Shown here piece after piece: positions 23,733 through 54,927 of a stretch of 64,000 nt of DNA. Within the stretch, counting starts at the first letter, position 1, and each line of letters starts with the position of its first letter. The notes under the pieces are model-generated. The model made no database searches. It saw only the letters and a list, made by a program, of their open reading frames with translations, and had not been told where the DNA came from. A program made the position numbers and the translations under genes. Source of the stretch: Bacteroidia bacterium (GTDB lineage Bacteria > Bacteroidota > Ignavibacteria > SZUA-365); contig JAOSJT010000001.1 of NCBI GenBank assembly GCA_027493955.1, positions 325,131 through 389,130 of the forward strand, given 5' to 3'.

Positions 23733-24077
23733 TCACTGCCGGAGCTTCGGATTGTCGCGATGTCGATTGGCATCGCGTTGCGTTTTTTTCTCGAGGTTGC
23801 GATGCAGAGCCGAAGTGAGATCCACGCCGGTTTGGTTCGCGAGGCAGAGAAGCACGAACAGGACATCCGCGAATTCATCGGCGAGATCTCGGGCTGAGTC
23901 GGATTCTTTGAAGGATTGCTCGCCATACATGCGTGCGATGAGACGTGCGACCTCACCGACTTCCTCGACGAGCAGCGCCATATTCGTCAGCTCGTTGAAA
24001 TAGCGTACACCGGTGGACGAGATCCATTCGTCAACCATACGCTGGGCATCGCGGAGGGAGATATCGGAATCCTGCAT
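23733..24077 (-). CDS. MazG-like nucleotide pyrophosphohydrolase
   Basis: 114 aa, one MazG domain. The EExxE metal-binding motif is at residues 38-42 (LLVEEVGEVARLIAR) and the ExxD motif at 68-71 (LADEFADVLFVLLCLAN), which coordinate Mg2+ for hydrolysis of non-canonical or excess NTPs to NMP and PPi. The short single-domain form resembles MazG-like proteins that are often thought to clean nucleotide pools. The C-terminus (KKTQRDANRHRDNPKLRQ) is basic. It is transcribed away from folE's 3' end; the two genes are on the same strand with 131 bases between, which hold a repeat/terminator-like region. Confidence 0.88.
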   Translation of the reverse strand: MQDSDISLRDAQRMVDEWISSTGVRYFNELTNMALLVEEVGEVARLIARMYGEQSFKESDSARDLADEFADVLFVLLCLANQTGVDLTSALHRNLEKKTQRDANRHRDNPKLRQ

Positions 24078-24100
24078 GACGGGCTTTTTTTTGGTGAGGG

Positions 24101-24203
24101 GTAAAGAGTAAAGCGTAAAGGGGGAGAGGTGAAAAGGTGAAATGGTGAATAGGTAAAAAGGGTAAGAGGTAATGCCTTCCTCTTTACCCTTAACCCTTTA
24201 CCG
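24101..24203. repeat. GGTRAA-type short repeats with imperfect inverted repeat
   Basis: The plus strand carries GTAAAGAGTAAAGCGTAAAG, then GGTGAAAAGGTGAAATGGTG, and later the complement type CTTTACCCTTAACCCTTTACC. The parts near 24152-24169 and 24178-24202 can pair imperfectly. On the minus strand this lies directly after the folE stop and its T-rich arm could serve as a terminator; it also looks like remains of a simple-repeat family similar in style to the TTAAACG repeats after asd. Confidence 0.5.
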
Positions 24204-48942: not shown

Positions 48943-51060
48943 TTACCTGGTGATGATCATGCGACCGGTACGCAGTCCTGCGCTCCCTGACAGCATGTAC
49001 ATGTACATGCCGGAAGGAAGGGCGGGGGCCGTGAAACGCACCGTTACGGTACCGGCATCCATCGGCCCATCGAGCAACGTCGCGACGCTGCGGCCGGTGA
49101 CGTCATACACACGAAGGGTGACGTGTTCGCGCAGCGGCAGCTCGAAGCGAATGGAAGTACCTTCCGCGGCACGGAAGGGGTTCGGGTAGTTCTGATCCAG
49201 TTTCATTGACGTGGGATGGCCTGCGACATGCTCCACCGACGTGACGACATTGATGAAATCGTCCTCATCACGCGGCAACAGTTTCCAGTTGCTGAAGGAG
49301 AAGTACATCACGCCGGTCAGGGACTCGATGGCGGTGCCGGGACGCAAGTAAATGAGATTTGTGTCGGTGGAATCAAGCGTGTACACGTTATCCCAGGTCC
49401 CTGCATCGTCAACGCGCATATTGCCGTTGGTGTCGTTGAACAAAAACTCGCCAAAGTTCCCCGTTGGGGCATCGGCATTGATACTGGTGACGGTTCCTGG
49501 ACCGAATTTGGTGAGCATGCCTTCCCACTGCTCGGCGAAGGGATCACCGTCCTTGACAACGGCCGTGGCAAAATCACCTGTCGAGAGCTGAAGCGCAGCC
49601 GGGAGCGGAGCTGTACCGTGATCCGTCGTGACGCTTGCATTACCGACTGCAGTCACGTTGAAGCGCTCCTCAACGACGCCCGTAATGGTCACATCCTGAC
49701 CAATAACGAGATTTCTGATGCTTTCGTCGCCGCGCAGCATAATGCCGCTCCAGGCGTTGATGCCATCCTGCATGAACACCATGCCGAGATCCGTACTGCC
49801 CGCGATGATAACGCCGCGCAGTGTGACCTGTCCGCCGATAGCGCCGGAATTGCCGTTCAGGAAGGGCGTATACTGCACGTCGCGGATGCGCAGTGCTCCG
49901 TCGCGCACGATGAAGAACGGCTTCCCGAGGCGGGTGTCGCCGGGGAATGCCGTGGTCTCGTTGTCATTGTCGGTTGCTTCGACGTAGTACCAAATCACAT
50001 CTTCATCACTCTGCGCAGGGATCACTCCCGTCGCGATCATCGAAGCGTCATCGTAGGTCATGGTGATGCGATCAATTTCGGAATCGCCCATGCCGTAAAT
50101 CAGAACGACGTTACTGATGCTGCCGTCCGGGTTGGTGTCCTCGACCTTACAGGTGACGGTCACCGCTTGCGTTGAGTTCGGGATGCTGATGTCGCGTCCG
50201 AGATTGCTCACCGCGGGCGGGAAGGAGCCGACAGTGATGTCGCCGGGATACAACGGAGCGATGACAATACCCTGACCCGATGATGTGATGACACCACGGA
50301 TTGCGGTGATCGTCGTACCGGTTGTCGGAGGTGCCCAATTCGGATTGAAGCCCTGCGACCCACCACGGAAGTAGATGCTCTGATCGTACACACCGATGGA
50401 ATTGCCATTGCCGTCCTCGATCGTCCAGGTATACCGTCCGGTGGAGGTGTTCTGCGTCACGGATCCGACTTTGGCGCCCTCGATCACCACATACGCACCT
50501 TCCCATTGCTGCGCCTCGGGCTTTCCGGTGAGGGGACCGCCGTTGACGAGATCGCTGAGGAGAATTTTGGTCGGATCAGGGCGCTTTCCGAGATCATCGA
50601 GAATTTCGACCATCGCGTCGGCATTCCAGCGTCCGCTCAGAATGCCTATTTCGAATTGTGTCGTCGAAAAATACTGGGTAACGACACCGGTCACCCGAAC
50701 GACATAGCCGGTATCGACCGCGGTGACGAGAATGGCGTTCGAAGCGGTAGAATCCGAGGCGCGAACATTCAGCCCACTCCAGGCGCCACCCGCTTCATCC
50801 ATGAGATACATGGTGAAGCCATTTCCAAGGGCAAACAGGGTGGGGCCGCCCGCTGAAATGCGCGGGGCGGCGTACACCACTCCGGTCACGGTAATGGTAT
50901 CGCCCACATACGGCGAATTTTGATTCCCGGCGGCGAGGGTATCCGGATGAACCTCCTGAATCTGTCGTATGGTCAATGTGTCAGAATTGACCTGTGCTGT
51001 TGTCTGAGATACCGAGAACAGCAGCGAAAATAGTACGATTGACGTAAAATAATACTTCAT
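48943..51060 (-). CDS. T9SS-secreted protein with repeated OB-fold-like (DUF5689-type) domains
   Basis: 705 aa. Signal peptide (IVLFSLLFSVSQTTAQ). Three related modules each read GDTITVTGVVYA, GQVTLRGVIIAGS or VRVTGVVTQYF with a paired MYLMDEAGGAWSGLNV or FMQDGINAWSGIMLRG, the pattern of OB-fold nucleic-acid-like domains often attached to secreted nucleases; no nuclease is present here. An Ig-like piece (VEDTNPDGSISNVVLIYG) lies between. The last 85 residues are a T9SS sorting domain (LDQNYPNPFRAAEGTSIRFE, VYDVTGRSVATLLDG, PSGMYMYMLSG). Gap to the upstream gene (51074) is 13 bases, so they are co-transcribed. Function unknown; surface or biofilm binding is possible. Confidence 0.8.
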   Translation of the reverse strand: MKYYFTSIVLFSLLFSVSQTTAQVNSDTLTIRQIQEVHPDTLAAGNQNSPYVGDTITVTGVVYAAPRISAGGPTLFALGNGFTMYLMDEAGGAWSGLNVRASDSTASNAILVTAVDTGYVVRVTGVVTQYFSTTQFEIGILSGRWNADAMVEILDDLGKRPDPTKILLSDLVNGGPLTGKPEAQQWEGAYVVIEGAKVGSVTQNTSTGRYTWTIEDGNGNSIGVYDQSIYFRGGSQGFNPNWAPPTTGTTITAIRGVITSSGQGIVIAPLYPGDITVGSFPPAVSNLGRDISIPNSTQAVTVTCKVEDTNPDGSISNVVLIYGMGDSEIDRITMTYDDASMIATGVIPAQSDEDVIWYYVEATDNDNETTAFPGDTRLGKPFFIVRDGALRIRDVQYTPFLNGNSGAIGGQVTLRGVIIAGSTDLGMVFMQDGINAWSGIMLRGDESIRNLVIGQDVTITGVVEERFNVTAVGNASVTTDHGTAPLPAALQLSTGDFATAVVKDGDPFAEQWEGMLTKFGPGTVTSINADAPTGNFGEFLFNDTNGNMRVDDAGTWDNVYTLDSTDTNLIYLRPGTAIESLTGVMYFSFSNWKLLPRDEDDFINVVTSVEHVAGHPTSMKLDQNYPNPFRAAEGTSIRFELPLREHVTLRVYDVTGRSVATLLDGPMDAGTVTVRFTAPALPSGMYMYMLSGSAGLRTGRMIITR

Positions 51061-51073
51061 TAAAAACTCCTAA

Positions 51074-53155
51074 CTATTTGATAATGACGAACTTGCCGCG
51101 TTTTATATCTCCGGTGTCTTTATTTTCGACGGTAAAGAGGTAGAGACCGGTTGCAACCGCCTGATCGCTGTCTGAGATCAAATCCCAGGCATGCTCACCG
51201 CCAGCGAAGGTTTGCGTTCCATCCGAGTAACGAGCGAACCAACGGATCTCTTCGCCATTCGAGGCATCTGCATCATGCTGCATTGTTTTTACAAGGTCAC
51301 CCGCCATAGTAAACACGCGGATCTCCGCGCGCGCGGGCAGATTGGCGAAATACAGCTTGCGTTCGCGTTCACCGGAGCCATCCCACAAAGCGGAGGCGTA
51401 ATAGGGATTCGGATACACCCGGGGTTCCGCGTTCACGGTTTCCGTTGGTGTAGTACCCGGCAGCACACGTCTGGCATTTTGAAGCCGGCTGCTCTCAAGG
51501 CTCTCTACGTTATTGACGGGATCGCCCCCGTCGAAAGCGGTAACCGAGTACACATACTGCCAGCCGTTGAGCTGATTGGGAACACGGAGATGGTAGCGAT
51601 ACTCGGCCGGATCGCCCTCGAAGGACACCGGAGCCGCAAGGCGTACAGCATCGAATCCCGTGTTGTAGAACAATGCATTTCCCGGAAGATCGTATTCGCC
51701 GGCAAGAATGAAGCTCTCCGAAAGCACCGTACCTTGATTCAAATCCGCACCGGGATTGGTACGGTAGACGCGATAGCCCTCGAAATCCTTTTTCCCGGAT
51801 ATAGGGTCAATCGATGATTCGGCCCGATCATCCCAATAAATGCTCACGGCTTGATTCTCAGGGATGATTTTCACTCTTGGGGCCGTAGGGGGAGCAGGGA
51901 GAACATAGCGCGTCAGTTTGCCGTCGCCGTTCAAATCCTCACCCGGATCGAGCACATTGTTGCGATTCTTGTCCTCACCGTCGTACGCCTGTTGCGCAAA
52001 GCTCCGACCGCGAAAGAGGTTCGCTTTTGCCGCTTCGGTGTCGTCAGGCGTTGCGTCGCTGCCGGCCTTTTTTGCGCAGATCACAGCAAAAACAGTGTTG
52101 ACGGTTTCACCCGGTTGCACCGCGCGAAATGGTCCTGTACTCAGGAGGACAGAGCGGTTGGAGGGGGACTTCAGCGTCGGATATTCCGTGCGTGGTAACC
52201 CGACGGCCATTTTTTCATAGCGTTCACGATCATTCTCCGGAGAAAAATAGACCGGATCGGTGGTGTTTCGGAATTGCCAGGTGTTGAAAACACTTTTTGC
52301 GCCGAGTGAATCGCTTCCGTCGGGTTTAGGGCCATAGCGCTGAATAGGTGTACTGCCGAGTACGGCGAGACCGATATAGCTTTCGGTGAAGCCCGGATCG
52401 CCATCCACATCGAATTCATAGGCGAGACGCAGCGAATCCACATAGCCATTCCCCCCGCGGGCAAAGAACGCGGAACCGCGAGGCGGAGAGATATTGGTGT
52501 TTCTGACCACCATATCTATCCACACACCGACGTACAGGCTGTCGAGAACAGTTCGGGAATGATTTGTTATCGAGTAGTTGAGAATGACGAAATTTTCGGC
52601 AAAGGAAAAATTCCACGCATACGCCTCCATTCGCACAGCTACCCCCAACGGATTCGTATGCTCTGGAATGGTGACGCTGCTGCCGGGGACAATCAGGTTG
52701 GAATCGGTGAATTCCGCAACAAAATCCTGATGACTAATGGCATCGGGGCTATAAAAGCGGGAGTCCGTTAAAGTAGATCGTTCTTCAGTCCGCGATCCTT
52801 GCGCATTCGTGAACTCAAAACCGGCGGCAACATCACGCACGGAGCTCACATCAACGGCACCGCTGGAAACGAAGGGCCCCGCACTTCCACGAAATGCTCC
52901 CAGCCACAAACCTCCCGAGAAGAGATGCTCGATTCCGGATCCGGCCGGATACTCACAATTCGGTTGTGATGGCCACCGATTGAAGCCGTGTCCCAGCGTC
53001 CCAAAATTCGACAGAGTTAACCGTACACTACCCACGCTGGTAAATTTCGATTCATCGTCATCCAGCGATTTACGGAACGAGGCGGGGCTGCCCGGTTGCT
53101 GCTGGGCCAACGCCGTACTTCCGGCGAGAAGCAGAAAAAAGATCACACGCTTCAA
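51074..53155 (-). CDS. T9SS-secreted protein with fibronectin-like part and sorting domain
   Basis: About 693 aa if translation starts at the TTG at 53155, which begins a good signal peptide (KRVIFFLLLAGSTALAQ); the frame runs upstream to 53302, and a GTG at 53146 is another option, so the start is uncertain. The body has a conserved N-part (FTSVGSVRLTLSNFGTLGHGFN) seen in other secreted proteins of this group, a long beta-rich stretch and a fibronectin-like module (AVSIYWDDRAESSIDPISG, FEGYRVYRT). The C-terminus shows PRVYPNPYYASALWDG, IRVFTMAGDLVKTM and GLYLFTVENKDTGDIKRGKF, a T9SS/FlgD-like sorting domain. It opens the two-gene unit with 48943-51060. No enzyme motif. Confidence 0.78.
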   Translation of the reverse strand: MKRVIFFLLLAGSTALAQQQPGSPASFRKSLDDDESKFTSVGSVRLTLSNFGTLGHGFNRWPSQPNCEYPAGSGIEHLFSGGLWLGAFRGSAGPFVSSGAVDVSSVRDVAAGFEFTNAQGSRTEERSTLTDSRFYSPDAISHQDFVAEFTDSNLIVPGSSVTIPEHTNPLGVAVRMEAYAWNFSFAENFVILNYSITNHSRTVLDSLYVGVWIDMVVRNTNISPPRGSAFFARGGNGYVDSLRLAYEFDVDGDPGFTESYIGLAVLGSTPIQRYGPKPDGSDSLGAKSVFNTWQFRNTTDPVYFSPENDRERYEKMAVGLPRTEYPTLKSPSNRSVLLSTGPFRAVQPGETVNTVFAVICAKKAGSDATPDDTEAAKANLFRGRSFAQQAYDGEDKNRNNVLDPGEDLNGDGKLTRYVLPAPPTAPRVKIIPENQAVSIYWDDRAESSIDPISGKKDFEGYRVYRTNPGADLNQGTVLSESFILAGEYDLPGNALFYNTGFDAVRLAAPVSFEGDPAEYRYHLRVPNQLNGWQYVYSVTAFDGGDPVNNVESLESSRLQNARRVLPGTTPTETVNAEPRVYPNPYYASALWDGSGERERKLYFANLPARAEIRVFTMAGDLVKTMQHDADASNGEEIRWFARYSDGTQTFAGGEHAWDLISDSDQAVATGLYLFTVENKDTGDIKRGKFVIIK

Positions 53156-53571
53156 GGAATACCCGTCGTTGATTGTACCAATTTGATTCTGAAGATTCTG
53201 CCGCTTCTTGTGAGCTTTCAAGGTAGAAATGCGGGCGTAGAAAAGCAAAAAAACGATGGAATGCGGAGATGAGGTGCTCGCAGCTAACCTGTTATAATTC
53301 AATTCTTTACGGGTTTCACTATCATCCTGTCCTGTGGACGTTTCATCGTGCTCAAGAGAATGACAAGCTTCATGGGAAGGACAGAACAGTGCTTCACATC
53401 ATACATTGCATTGCTGTATGTAATGCGGTCAACTGTCAGTGCCCCTGCCTGATCCTGCGCTTCGATGGGGGAGAGACGAGGCATCCCGCCATTTTTGACT
53501 TACGAAGCAGGGCCAAAATCGGTAATTTTTATGTTGAAATTTCTTAACCATGTTCAATTTGGGAGCATTGC
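53156..53571. other. Intergenic region between divergent genes
   Basis: 416 bases upstream of both the secreted protein gene (minus) and the RAYT-like gene (plus). A TATAAT at 53293-53298 has no convincing -35 partner. A TTGGGAG ribosome site lies just before ATG 53572. I see no gene or repeat here. Confidence 0.5.
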
Positions 53572-54408
53572 ATGGGAAGCACAGGACAATTCAATCAAAA
53601 GCGTTTGCCGGATCACGATTACTCGGAGCCGGGGACCTATCATCTGCGTTTCGACGTCGACAAGCACGGTGCGGTACTCGGCACGATGAACAAGGGAGTG
53701 ATGACACTCAACACCTTCGGCGAGTTGCTGCTGGGAGTGCTCGGTGTCGCGCTGCAGGTATTCACGTGTCTTCGCATCGACGCGATGGACATTCGACCGC
53801 GCTGCGTCGAGTTTGTGGTCACAATCGATTCGTGGCGAAAGCCATTCATTTCCCGTTTCATCGAATGGTTCGACAAGTGGCTGTATCGTCGCCAGATGAC
53901 CATTTCGGCGTTCGCGGGATATGTGAAAATGAACAGCGCGCGCCGCATCAACAGCGCGCGCGGAGGGAGCGGGACGCATTTCTGGACACTCGGGTACAAG
54001 GATCGCGTGCTGACGGATCCAGATGAGATCGAGCGAGTGTGCGCACGACTGGATGTGCGCTTCCGTCGCGTGCGCTGCTCACTGCGCTCCGAAGAGGTCG
54101 GTGCACAGAATGTACAGGTGCAAAGCTTTTCATCGGCCATGTTGAGCGGCTTGCGGAAGGTGTTCGGGGCATTGTGCGGCGGCGCAGACGTGGTTAGGCT
54201 TCCGGAGGCAGAGGAGTTGCCGTGCGACACGATGCTGCTGGGCCGGGCGCTGTTTCTGAACAACTCGCTGTTGCGGCCGTTGACCGGAATTTTTGGTAAC
54301 AGGGAAGCGACAGGAGGAGAGAGTGTGCCCGGAGGTCTCACGCGAGTGCCGTTGATCTGGTCTGTGGGTCCAGGTAGGATTTTTCTGAAAGAGCCCGGTA
54401 ATAGTTGA
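53572..54408 (+). CDS. RAYT-like transposase (REP-associated) with lost catalytic residues
   Basis: 278 aa, preceded by GGGAG. The first 165 residues follow the RAYT/IS200-like Y1 transposase plan: LPDHDYSEPGTYHLRF, LGTMNKGVMTLNTFGELL, IRPRCVEFVV, FAGYVKMNSARRINSARGG and HFWTLGYKDRVLTDPDEIERV. In working members the strand ending FVVMPNHLH gives the HUH metal pair; here the matching residues (about 81-88) read FVVTIDSW. The motif WQxxxYEHxIR that holds the nucleophile Tyr reads WTLGYKDRVLT, with Lys143 at the expected Tyr. The final 110 residues resemble nothing I know. It therefore looks like a diverged, probably non-cutting relative kept as an intact reading frame. Palindromic repeats lie 210 bases downstream. 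Confidence 0.65.
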   Translation: MGSTGQFNQKRLPDHDYSEPGTYHLRFDVDKHGAVLGTMNKGVMTLNTFGELLLGVLGVALQVFTCLRIDAMDIRPRCVEFVVTIDSWRKPFISRFIEWFDKWLYRRQMTISAFAGYVKMNSARRINSARGGSGTHFWTLGYKDRVLTDPDEIERVCARLDVRFRRVRCSLRSEEVGAQNVQVQSFSSAMLSGLRKVFGALCGGADVVRLPEAEELPCDTMLLGRALFLNNSLLRPLTGIFGNREATGGESVPGGLTRVPLIWSVGPGRIFLKEPGNS

Positions 54409-54530
54409 CGGGCAGCATTGAGTTGTAATCCTGCGAAGGCGGGTTTGGGAAGCGGATATCCCGGGTCGGCGAGCGGCTGAGCGGGGAGGCGGAGCGTGGG
54501 GTGACGGATGAATTGCGTGGGGTGTAGGAT

Positions 54531-54554
54531 GGGGAGGAGGGGTTGGGAGGCGGG
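54531..54554 (+). other. G-quadruplex-type motif in a G-rich intergenic stretch
   Basis: Four G runs: 54531-54534, 54539-54542, 54545-54547 and 54552-54554, with loops of 4, 2 and 4 bases. The surrounding 54470-54610 is strongly G-skewed on the plus strand and contains no gene. Confidence 0.5.
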
Positions 54555-54618
54555 AGTTTGGCAGCGTTGGGTGAAATGGGAGGCAACGGAGGGCAGTATC
54601 TGGTACTTTGGGGCATTG

Positions 54619-54803
54619 ATTTCGATTCATGAATCGATTTTAGGAAACCGAGAAGCCCCCCCTCAATTTCGATTCATGAATCGATTTTAGGACACCGAGA
54701 AGCTACCCCCTCAATTTCGATTCATGAATCGATTTTAGGACACCGAGAAGCTACCCCGCTCAATTTCGATTCATGAATCGATTTTAGGAAACCAAGAAGC
54801 CCC
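54619..54803. repeat. Array of four REP-like palindromic repeats
   Basis: Four copies of a unit with the perfect 16-bp palindrome TCGATTCATGAATCGA at 54622-54637, 54669-54684, 54717-54732 and 54766-54781 (spacing 47, 48 and 49), each followed by TTTTAGGA(A/C)ACC(G/A)AGAAGC and a C-rich linker. They lie between the RAYT-like gene and glnS, the expected place for REP elements tied to a RAYT. The remaining gap to glnS (54804-54927) shows no other feature. Confidence 0.85.
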
Positions 54804-54927
54804 CCGCGCTCCGACTGTTTCAAACCCCTATGCTCTCTCCTCCTAAAACGCTATCTTACCTCTTCCTCCCGCATCACGCTGGACCCTAGCACGAACCGTC
54901 GATACCAACAGACTCAAACCGGATACC

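Follow-up and report, generated by a model that had tools for sequence, protein, structure and literature searches.

What becomes of a transposase-like protein once the residues of its chemistry are gone, and is it still tied to the palindromes beside it? The question is raised by a gene in the 64,000-nt stretch of DNA analysed here (the window), which encodes a 278-aa protein with the overall sequence plan of RAYTs (TnpAREP). An earlier note on the window had reported that this protein has neither an HUH motif nor a nucleophilic tyrosine and ends in a tail of about 110 residues, all of which we confirmed at 53572-54408. The note had also placed four palindrome-bearing units some 210 bases downstream, and TCGATTCATGAATCGA indeed recurs there at 54622, 54669, 54717 and 54766. 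Its author wavered between a domesticated and a dead RAYT whose repeats remain, possibly with a retained DNA-binding role.

The cassette and its paralogues

The host genome (G000) is 5.24 Mb on one contig. Searching it with the window protein returned 18 places at E values up to 10, corresponding to about 15 paralogues in three lineages plus remnants. Lineage A has five loci: the window copy, copies of 94%, 81% and 56% identity, and the frameshifted L040, which counts as two of the 18 places. The nine loci of lineage B are 33-40% identical to the window protein and include L044, in which the third codon counted from the shared start is a stop; lineage C is a single locus, L050. The last two places, at chance-level score, are an ordinary RAYT (L051) and a truncated fossil (L054), and a further remnant, L055, is an N-terminal piece fused to two palindromes. 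ORFs are intact in most copies, and the A and B cassettes occupy unrelated loci. The damaged copies L040 and L044 together with the remnants L054 and L055 indicate that decay also occurs. The window cassette contains the following features.

53492..53571, + strand: left part of the cassette, from alignment of upstream regions between copies
53492-53501, + strand: promoter-like TTTTTGACTT, common to part of lineage A (upstream alignment)
53561-53565, + strand: ribosome-binding site GGGAG (upstream alignment)
53572..54408, + strand: RAYT-derived protein of lineage A, 278-aa ORF with RAYT-like plan
53794..53811, + strand: codons R75-P-R-C-V-E80, counterpart of M-P-N/D-H-x-H in RAYTs, HUH lost (alignment with intact RAYTs)
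54046..54048, + strand: codon R159, approximate position of the RAYT catalytic Tyr of YIxxN (alignments including L099 and L065)
54076..54405, + strand: C-terminal tail of about 110 residues, present in lineages A and B, with conserved LLGRxLFL and GPxRI
54409..54621, + strand: G-rich, C-poor 3' spacer from stop codon to first palindrome
54459..54486, + strand: imperfect stem-loop with 5-bp outer helix, 4-bp inner helix and 5-nt loop (RNAalifold on the 3' spacer alignment)
54611..54802, no strand: tandem array of four palindrome-bearing units of 47-49 bp
54622..54637, no strand: palindrome 1, TCGATTCATGAATCGA, 213 nt past the stop
54669..54684, no strand: palindrome 2, TCGATTCATGAATCGA
54717..54732, no strand: palindrome 3, TCGATTCATGAATCGA
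54766..54781, no strand: palindrome 4, TCGATTCATGAATCGA
54803..54927, no strand: C-rich flank (GC skew)

Similarity between copies begins about 25-120 bp 5' of the matched ORF starts. Inspection by eye failed to fix the exact ends of the element or its target-site duplications. Over the stretch that begins with the ribosome-binding site and ends with the second palindrome, L042 and L043 share 98.7% identity, but they differ upstream. This pattern suggests gene conversion, at least once, and high identity is therefore no proof of recent movement. Neither the whole window protein nor its tail was assigned to a family in Pfam, NCBIfam or PHROGs, and an Rfam search gave no match. The minus strand of the window at 48943-53302 carries two large secreted-protein-like ORFs, one of them with an LDQNYPNPF-type C-terminal region of the kind found in type IX secretion sorting signals.

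The genome also encodes transposase-like proteins outside the three lineages. L051 (G000:C1:887839-888300), with MPNHIH and YIRNNP, lies beside a classic REP, GTAGAGACGCCCGGCCGGGCGTCTCTAC. L062/L200 (G000:C1, about 1.005 Mb) is an HUH-intact RAYT in a 335-aa open frame, with a long low-complexity insertion between its HUH and Tyr halves. L053 (G000:C1:4215650-4215988) scores above the Pfam cut-off for Y1_Tnp, carries NHVH and YISNQ..HH, and resembles subclass 1.2 of the TnpAY1 survey (PMC6006769).

Fold, descent and the catalytic positions

We modeled the core of the window protein (residues 1-179) with AlphaFold2 on an alignment of 26 sequences including RAYTs, and obtained a pLDDT of 80.6. 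The top 30 Foldseek matches of this model were all Y1 transposases, with E values down to 4e-6. In VIA-align comparisons spanning residues 13-171, the core matched IS608 (2a6o) with a Z score of 13.9 and TnpAREP bound to its REP hairpin (4er8) with a Z score of 13.0 over 126 residues. A structural match to Y1 transposases, on which the earlier note had made its reading depend, was thus found, and the core has the Y1-transposase fold in a model that leans toward RAYTs because RAYTs were in the alignment used to build it. The sequence by itself also aligns with RAYTs, the window protein being 29% identical to L099. The full-length model built without an alignment reached a pLDDT of 32, and a PDB profile search by sequence gave chance matches alone (Disks large, E 0.1). 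In a maximum-likelihood tree, A, B and C form one clade (99/97) that is sister (98/98) to the RAYTs L099 (JACZJN010000004.1, genome G005) and L065 from the same taxonomic family, a placement that shows descent from RAYTs. These closest relatives differ from the family in having intact HUH and Tyr motifs, MPDHVH and YIxxNA.

Alignment with intact RAYTs identified R75-P-R-C-V-E80 as the counterpart of the HUH motif, with H78 changed to C and H80 to E; the replacement had earlier been assigned to TIDSW (residues 84-88). In RAYTs the catalytic Tyr belongs to the YIxxNP motif and corresponds to Y115 of E. coli TnpAREP (PMC8266576); its aligned position is about R159 rather than Lys-143, the residue formerly proposed, which sits upstream in a WxxxYxDR motif. 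One alignment (A4) moves the Tyr column two residues along, to D161, and no Tyr is present under either placement. A MAFFT alignment that placed the YIxxN helix at tail residue 225 was rejected, as lineage C (VRDLMRGDP) and spacing back the direct alignment. HUH-equivalent residues read RPRCVE in lineage A (RPTSIE in L039), RPSEVE in B and LPASAH in C, so that the second His, absent from A and B, is retained in C (H80). The Tyr and the Asn four residues past it, which in TnpAREP supplies the third ligand of the metal (PMC6006769), are replaced by R..R in A, E..E in B and L..D in C. No lineage retains the first His of HUH, the Tyr or the Asn downstream of it. Position 78 varies in A and B (C/S/E), E80, R106, R107, K119 and Y117 are invariant across both, and the conserved Y17, K119 and W138 are shared by RAYTs in general. 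As no lineage of the clade has the first His or the Tyr, these residues were most simply lost before it split, and amplification of the family would most simply have followed their loss.

Selection, palindromes and the 3' stem-loop

Pairwise dN/dS values between paralogues were calculated by the Nei-Gojobori method for core and tail separately. For the window copy paired with L037, the paralogue closest to it, the core ratio is 0.06 (8.5 nonsynonymous and 37.5 synonymous changes); over intact pairs, recent copies included, it is about 0.05-0.3, and tail ratios are 0.14-0.65. The L042/L043 pair is too alike to be judged. These ratios place the core under strong purifying selection, with the qualification that, where copies are mobile, selection acting on the source copies alone can also bring the ratio under 1. 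In helix 114-127, nine of the 14 residues are invariant; by comparison with the TnpAREP work (PMC8266576), this helix is the putative equivalent of the one that contacts REP.

The exact 16-mer TCGATTCATGAATCGA occurs nine times in the 5.24-Mb genome versus zero for its backwards control. All nine copies adjoin lineage A paralogues and none lies away from A genes, which argues that the repeat is not a product of chance. Each lineage has a palindrome of its own: TCGATTCATGAATCGA in A, GGCGATACATGAATCGCC with a 45-bp period in B and GGGAGCTTCATGGAACGCCC with a 37-bp period in C. The first palindrome of 14 out of 14 A and B copies lies 204-226 nt past the first base of the stop codon, and in lineage A it is 97% identical between copies versus 30-45% for the flanking 16-nt blocks. 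Palindromes are found on both sides of the gene solely in lineage C (L050). In A and B they lie 3' of the gene alone; upstream alignments revealed no palindrome at the left end of these cassettes, which are not flanked by inverted REPs. B-type palindromes occur at 113 places genome-wide at up to two mismatches, versus one for the control. B and C palindromes are found near the genes and also in gene-less arrays, C-type arrays amounting to dozens of units and reaching up to 25 units each. The earlier note had reckoned that its reading would fail if the repeat had no further copies, and the genome-wide counts did not bear out such an absence.

Gene-less head-to-tail C-type arrays with a 37-bp period and up to 25 units are located at G000:C1:783083-783990 (L194), 2117662-2118124 (L196), 4095449-4095838 (L197) and 3967071-3967237 (L198), with no RAYT-like ORF within the stretches examined. 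At L093, L094, L095 and L052 (G000:C1 3.435, 4.369, 4.783 and 2.626 Mb), B-type palindromes lie inside gene-less repeat units of about 118-151 bp.

The palindrome core TTCATGAA is common to the family and the sister RAYT L099. In the sister genome G005, GTAGGGCGGATTCATGAATCCGCCC is found at many loci including the surroundings of its RAYT (17 forward and 13 reverse matches). The host genome has zero GTAG-tagged palindromes of the TTCATGAA core, and the repeats of the family carry no GTAG tag. The GTAG tag directs cleavage; its mutation in one TnpAREP impairs cleavage, not binding (PMC8266576). As single-stranded DNA, the sister REP GTAGGGCGGATTCATGAATCCGCCC forms a hairpin of -13.7 kcal/mol versus -3.7 kcal/mol for the A palindrome. 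The much weaker A hairpin makes a duplex, operator-like binding site more likely, and the palindromes would now probably be bound as duplex sites.

Beyond what had been reported before, the analysis brought out the paralogues and a conserved stem-loop between gene and array. RNAalifold, run on a sequence-based alignment of the 3' spacers with a single structure chosen, placed the stem-loop 39-50 nt past the stop in the copies measured, with 94.9% of cells paired versus 42-53% when the structure was slid. Covariation was 0.406 versus 0.230 (sd 0.037) after shuffling, and 0 of 500 shuffles scored as high. All 14 genomic matches of a covariance model belong to A or B genes, with a single one for each gene (in the window, 54445-54502 at 59.6 bits), and lineage C and the HUH relatives gave no match. 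Single-sequence folding energies are unremarkable (z 0 to -2.5), and the support comes from covariation. Frequent G-U pairs and scarce A-C mismatches suggest that the stem-loop belongs to the sense strand. A G-quadruplex was rejected as a common spacer feature, the G3 motif being present in four of 14 copies. GC skew swings across the array from the highest 100-bp value of the window (54501) to the lowest (54801), and a G-rich, C-poor spacer followed by a C-rich flank is the average over all 14 A and B copies. The next-highest 100-bp value in the window, +0.67, is at 24051-24150.

Known systems, rival readings and meaning

The family shares with RAYT/TnpAREP and its REPs (the REPtron; E. coli TnpAREP, 4er8) the Y1 fold, the sequence plan and a gene beside a cognate palindrome that recurs elsewhere in the genome. 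It differs in its missing first HUH His, catalytic Tyr and downstream Asn, in palindromes that have no GTAG and lie on the 3' side only (A and B), in its extra C-terminal tail and 3' stem-loop, and in its copy number: RAYTs are reported to be single-copy and unable to move themselves (PMC3116915), whereas about 15 paralogues are present here. IS200/IS605 elements have an intact TnpA and subterminal hairpins at both ends, unlike the window copy with neither HUH nor Tyr nor a left-end palindrome. Several TnpAY1 subclasses (Quentin et al. 2018, PMC6006769) have extra C-terminal domains, as the family does. That survey retained 722 of 924 proteins, those with both HuH and Y motifs (PMC6006769), so descendants devoid of the motifs were filtered out. 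The repeats resemble REP/BIME/REPIN sequences in being short extragenic palindromes in many copies linked to a RAYT gene, but they are head-to-tail tandem units of 37-48 bp with a symmetric dyad and no GTAG, and the exact A type is restricted to gene neighborhoods. No other family member turned up in 84,980 species genomes, in viral contigs or in plasmids, the species genomes and viral contigs being scanned with motif patterns that distant members could escape; 395 genomes of the phylum yielded no full-length member. The literature searched, limited in extent, contained no description of a multicopy RAYT lineage devoid of catalysis.

We favor, with a probability of about two in three, a reading in which the genes are lineage-specific, multicopy RAYT (TnpAREP) descendants that lost cleavage once and were kept as a palindrome-recognizing, non-cleaving protein. 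HUH/Tyr chemistry would have been lost before A, B and C split, and the protein would thereafter have been kept for recognition, binding being deduced from ancestry and co-conservation. Each copy forms a cassette that runs from promoter to ORF, then to a sense-strand stem-loop about 50 nt past the stop (A, B) and the lineage's own palindrome about 215 nt past it, the latter often multiplied into a tandem array; the protein may also bind the stem-loop of its own transcript. The spread copies, the selection and the fixed-distance palindromes together suggest an ex-transposase that now serves as a DNA-binding-only partner of its repeats. Copying of the cassettes by the protein's own HUH chemistry appears unlikely; candidate routes are intact RAYTs acting in trans, or duplication and gene conversion driven by replication or recombination. 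A bolder version, in our judgment less likely than not, holds that this is a mobile family that has no transposase active site yet proliferates, in which a cleavage-dead RAYT binds lineage-specific palindromes set at a fixed distance behind its gene, a structured 3' RNA is present, and host replication, recombination or a trans-acting RAYT does the copying.

The proteins could also be domesticated host regulators, nucleoid or transcription factors acting on arrays near many genes and spread through host benefit, as the many gene-less arrays (among the 113 B-type places and dozens of C-type units) and the purifying selection might indicate. Neighboring genes, read informally, show no common theme, however, and exact A palindromes solely beside A genes look self-directed, making such a role rather unlikely. 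We consider it a little harder to accept that the cassettes are passengers moved in trans by L051, L062 or the IS200-like L053, with an encoded protein that modulates the process or is neutral: HUH/Tyr-intact RAYTs are available in the genome and the cassettes do sit at unrelated loci, but L051 adjoins a different, GTAG-tagged REP, the A and B cassettes have neither a left-end palindrome nor GTAG, and core ratios of 0.05-0.3 are not expected of a neutral protein.

A protein that is still a recombinase, its active site rebuilt from residues such as E80 and further conserved polar ones, and that moves its own cassette would explain amplification after HUH/Tyr loss, the purifying selection and the five residues invariant in A and B. 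It is improbable given Arg, Glu or Leu at the Tyr position and Arg, Glu or Asp at the Asn position, a variable position 78, H80 in place of E80 in lineage C, the conservation of Y17, K119 and W138 across RAYTs generally, and the missing GTAG tag. We give least credence, very little indeed, to a relic: an inactive RAYT that serves no purpose today and whose repeats are left over. L040, L044, L054 and L055 are broken or truncated as a relic would be, yet the window copy is under strong purifying selection, most ORFs are intact, the rise to about 15 copies most simply came after the loss, and palindrome and stem-loop are maintained where flanks have diverged. Of the earlier alternatives, the dead RAYT is thus disfavored, and the RAYT-derived protein devoid of catalysis with a possible DNA-binding role fits the Y1 fold, the clade, the residue losses and the conserved palindromes.

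The proposed non-cleaving palindrome recognizer would bear on why RAYTs persist. RAYTs have been described as single-copy and catalytically intact, with GTAG-tagged REPs; here the catalytic residues are lost and the repeats have no GTAG, yet fold and palindrome core persist, purifying selection continues and copy number has risen. Surveys that demand both HuH and Y motifs miss such descendants. The family may thus be a natural case of separation of function: if the protein still binds its palindromes, selection in this lineage would be keeping binding alone, not cleavage.
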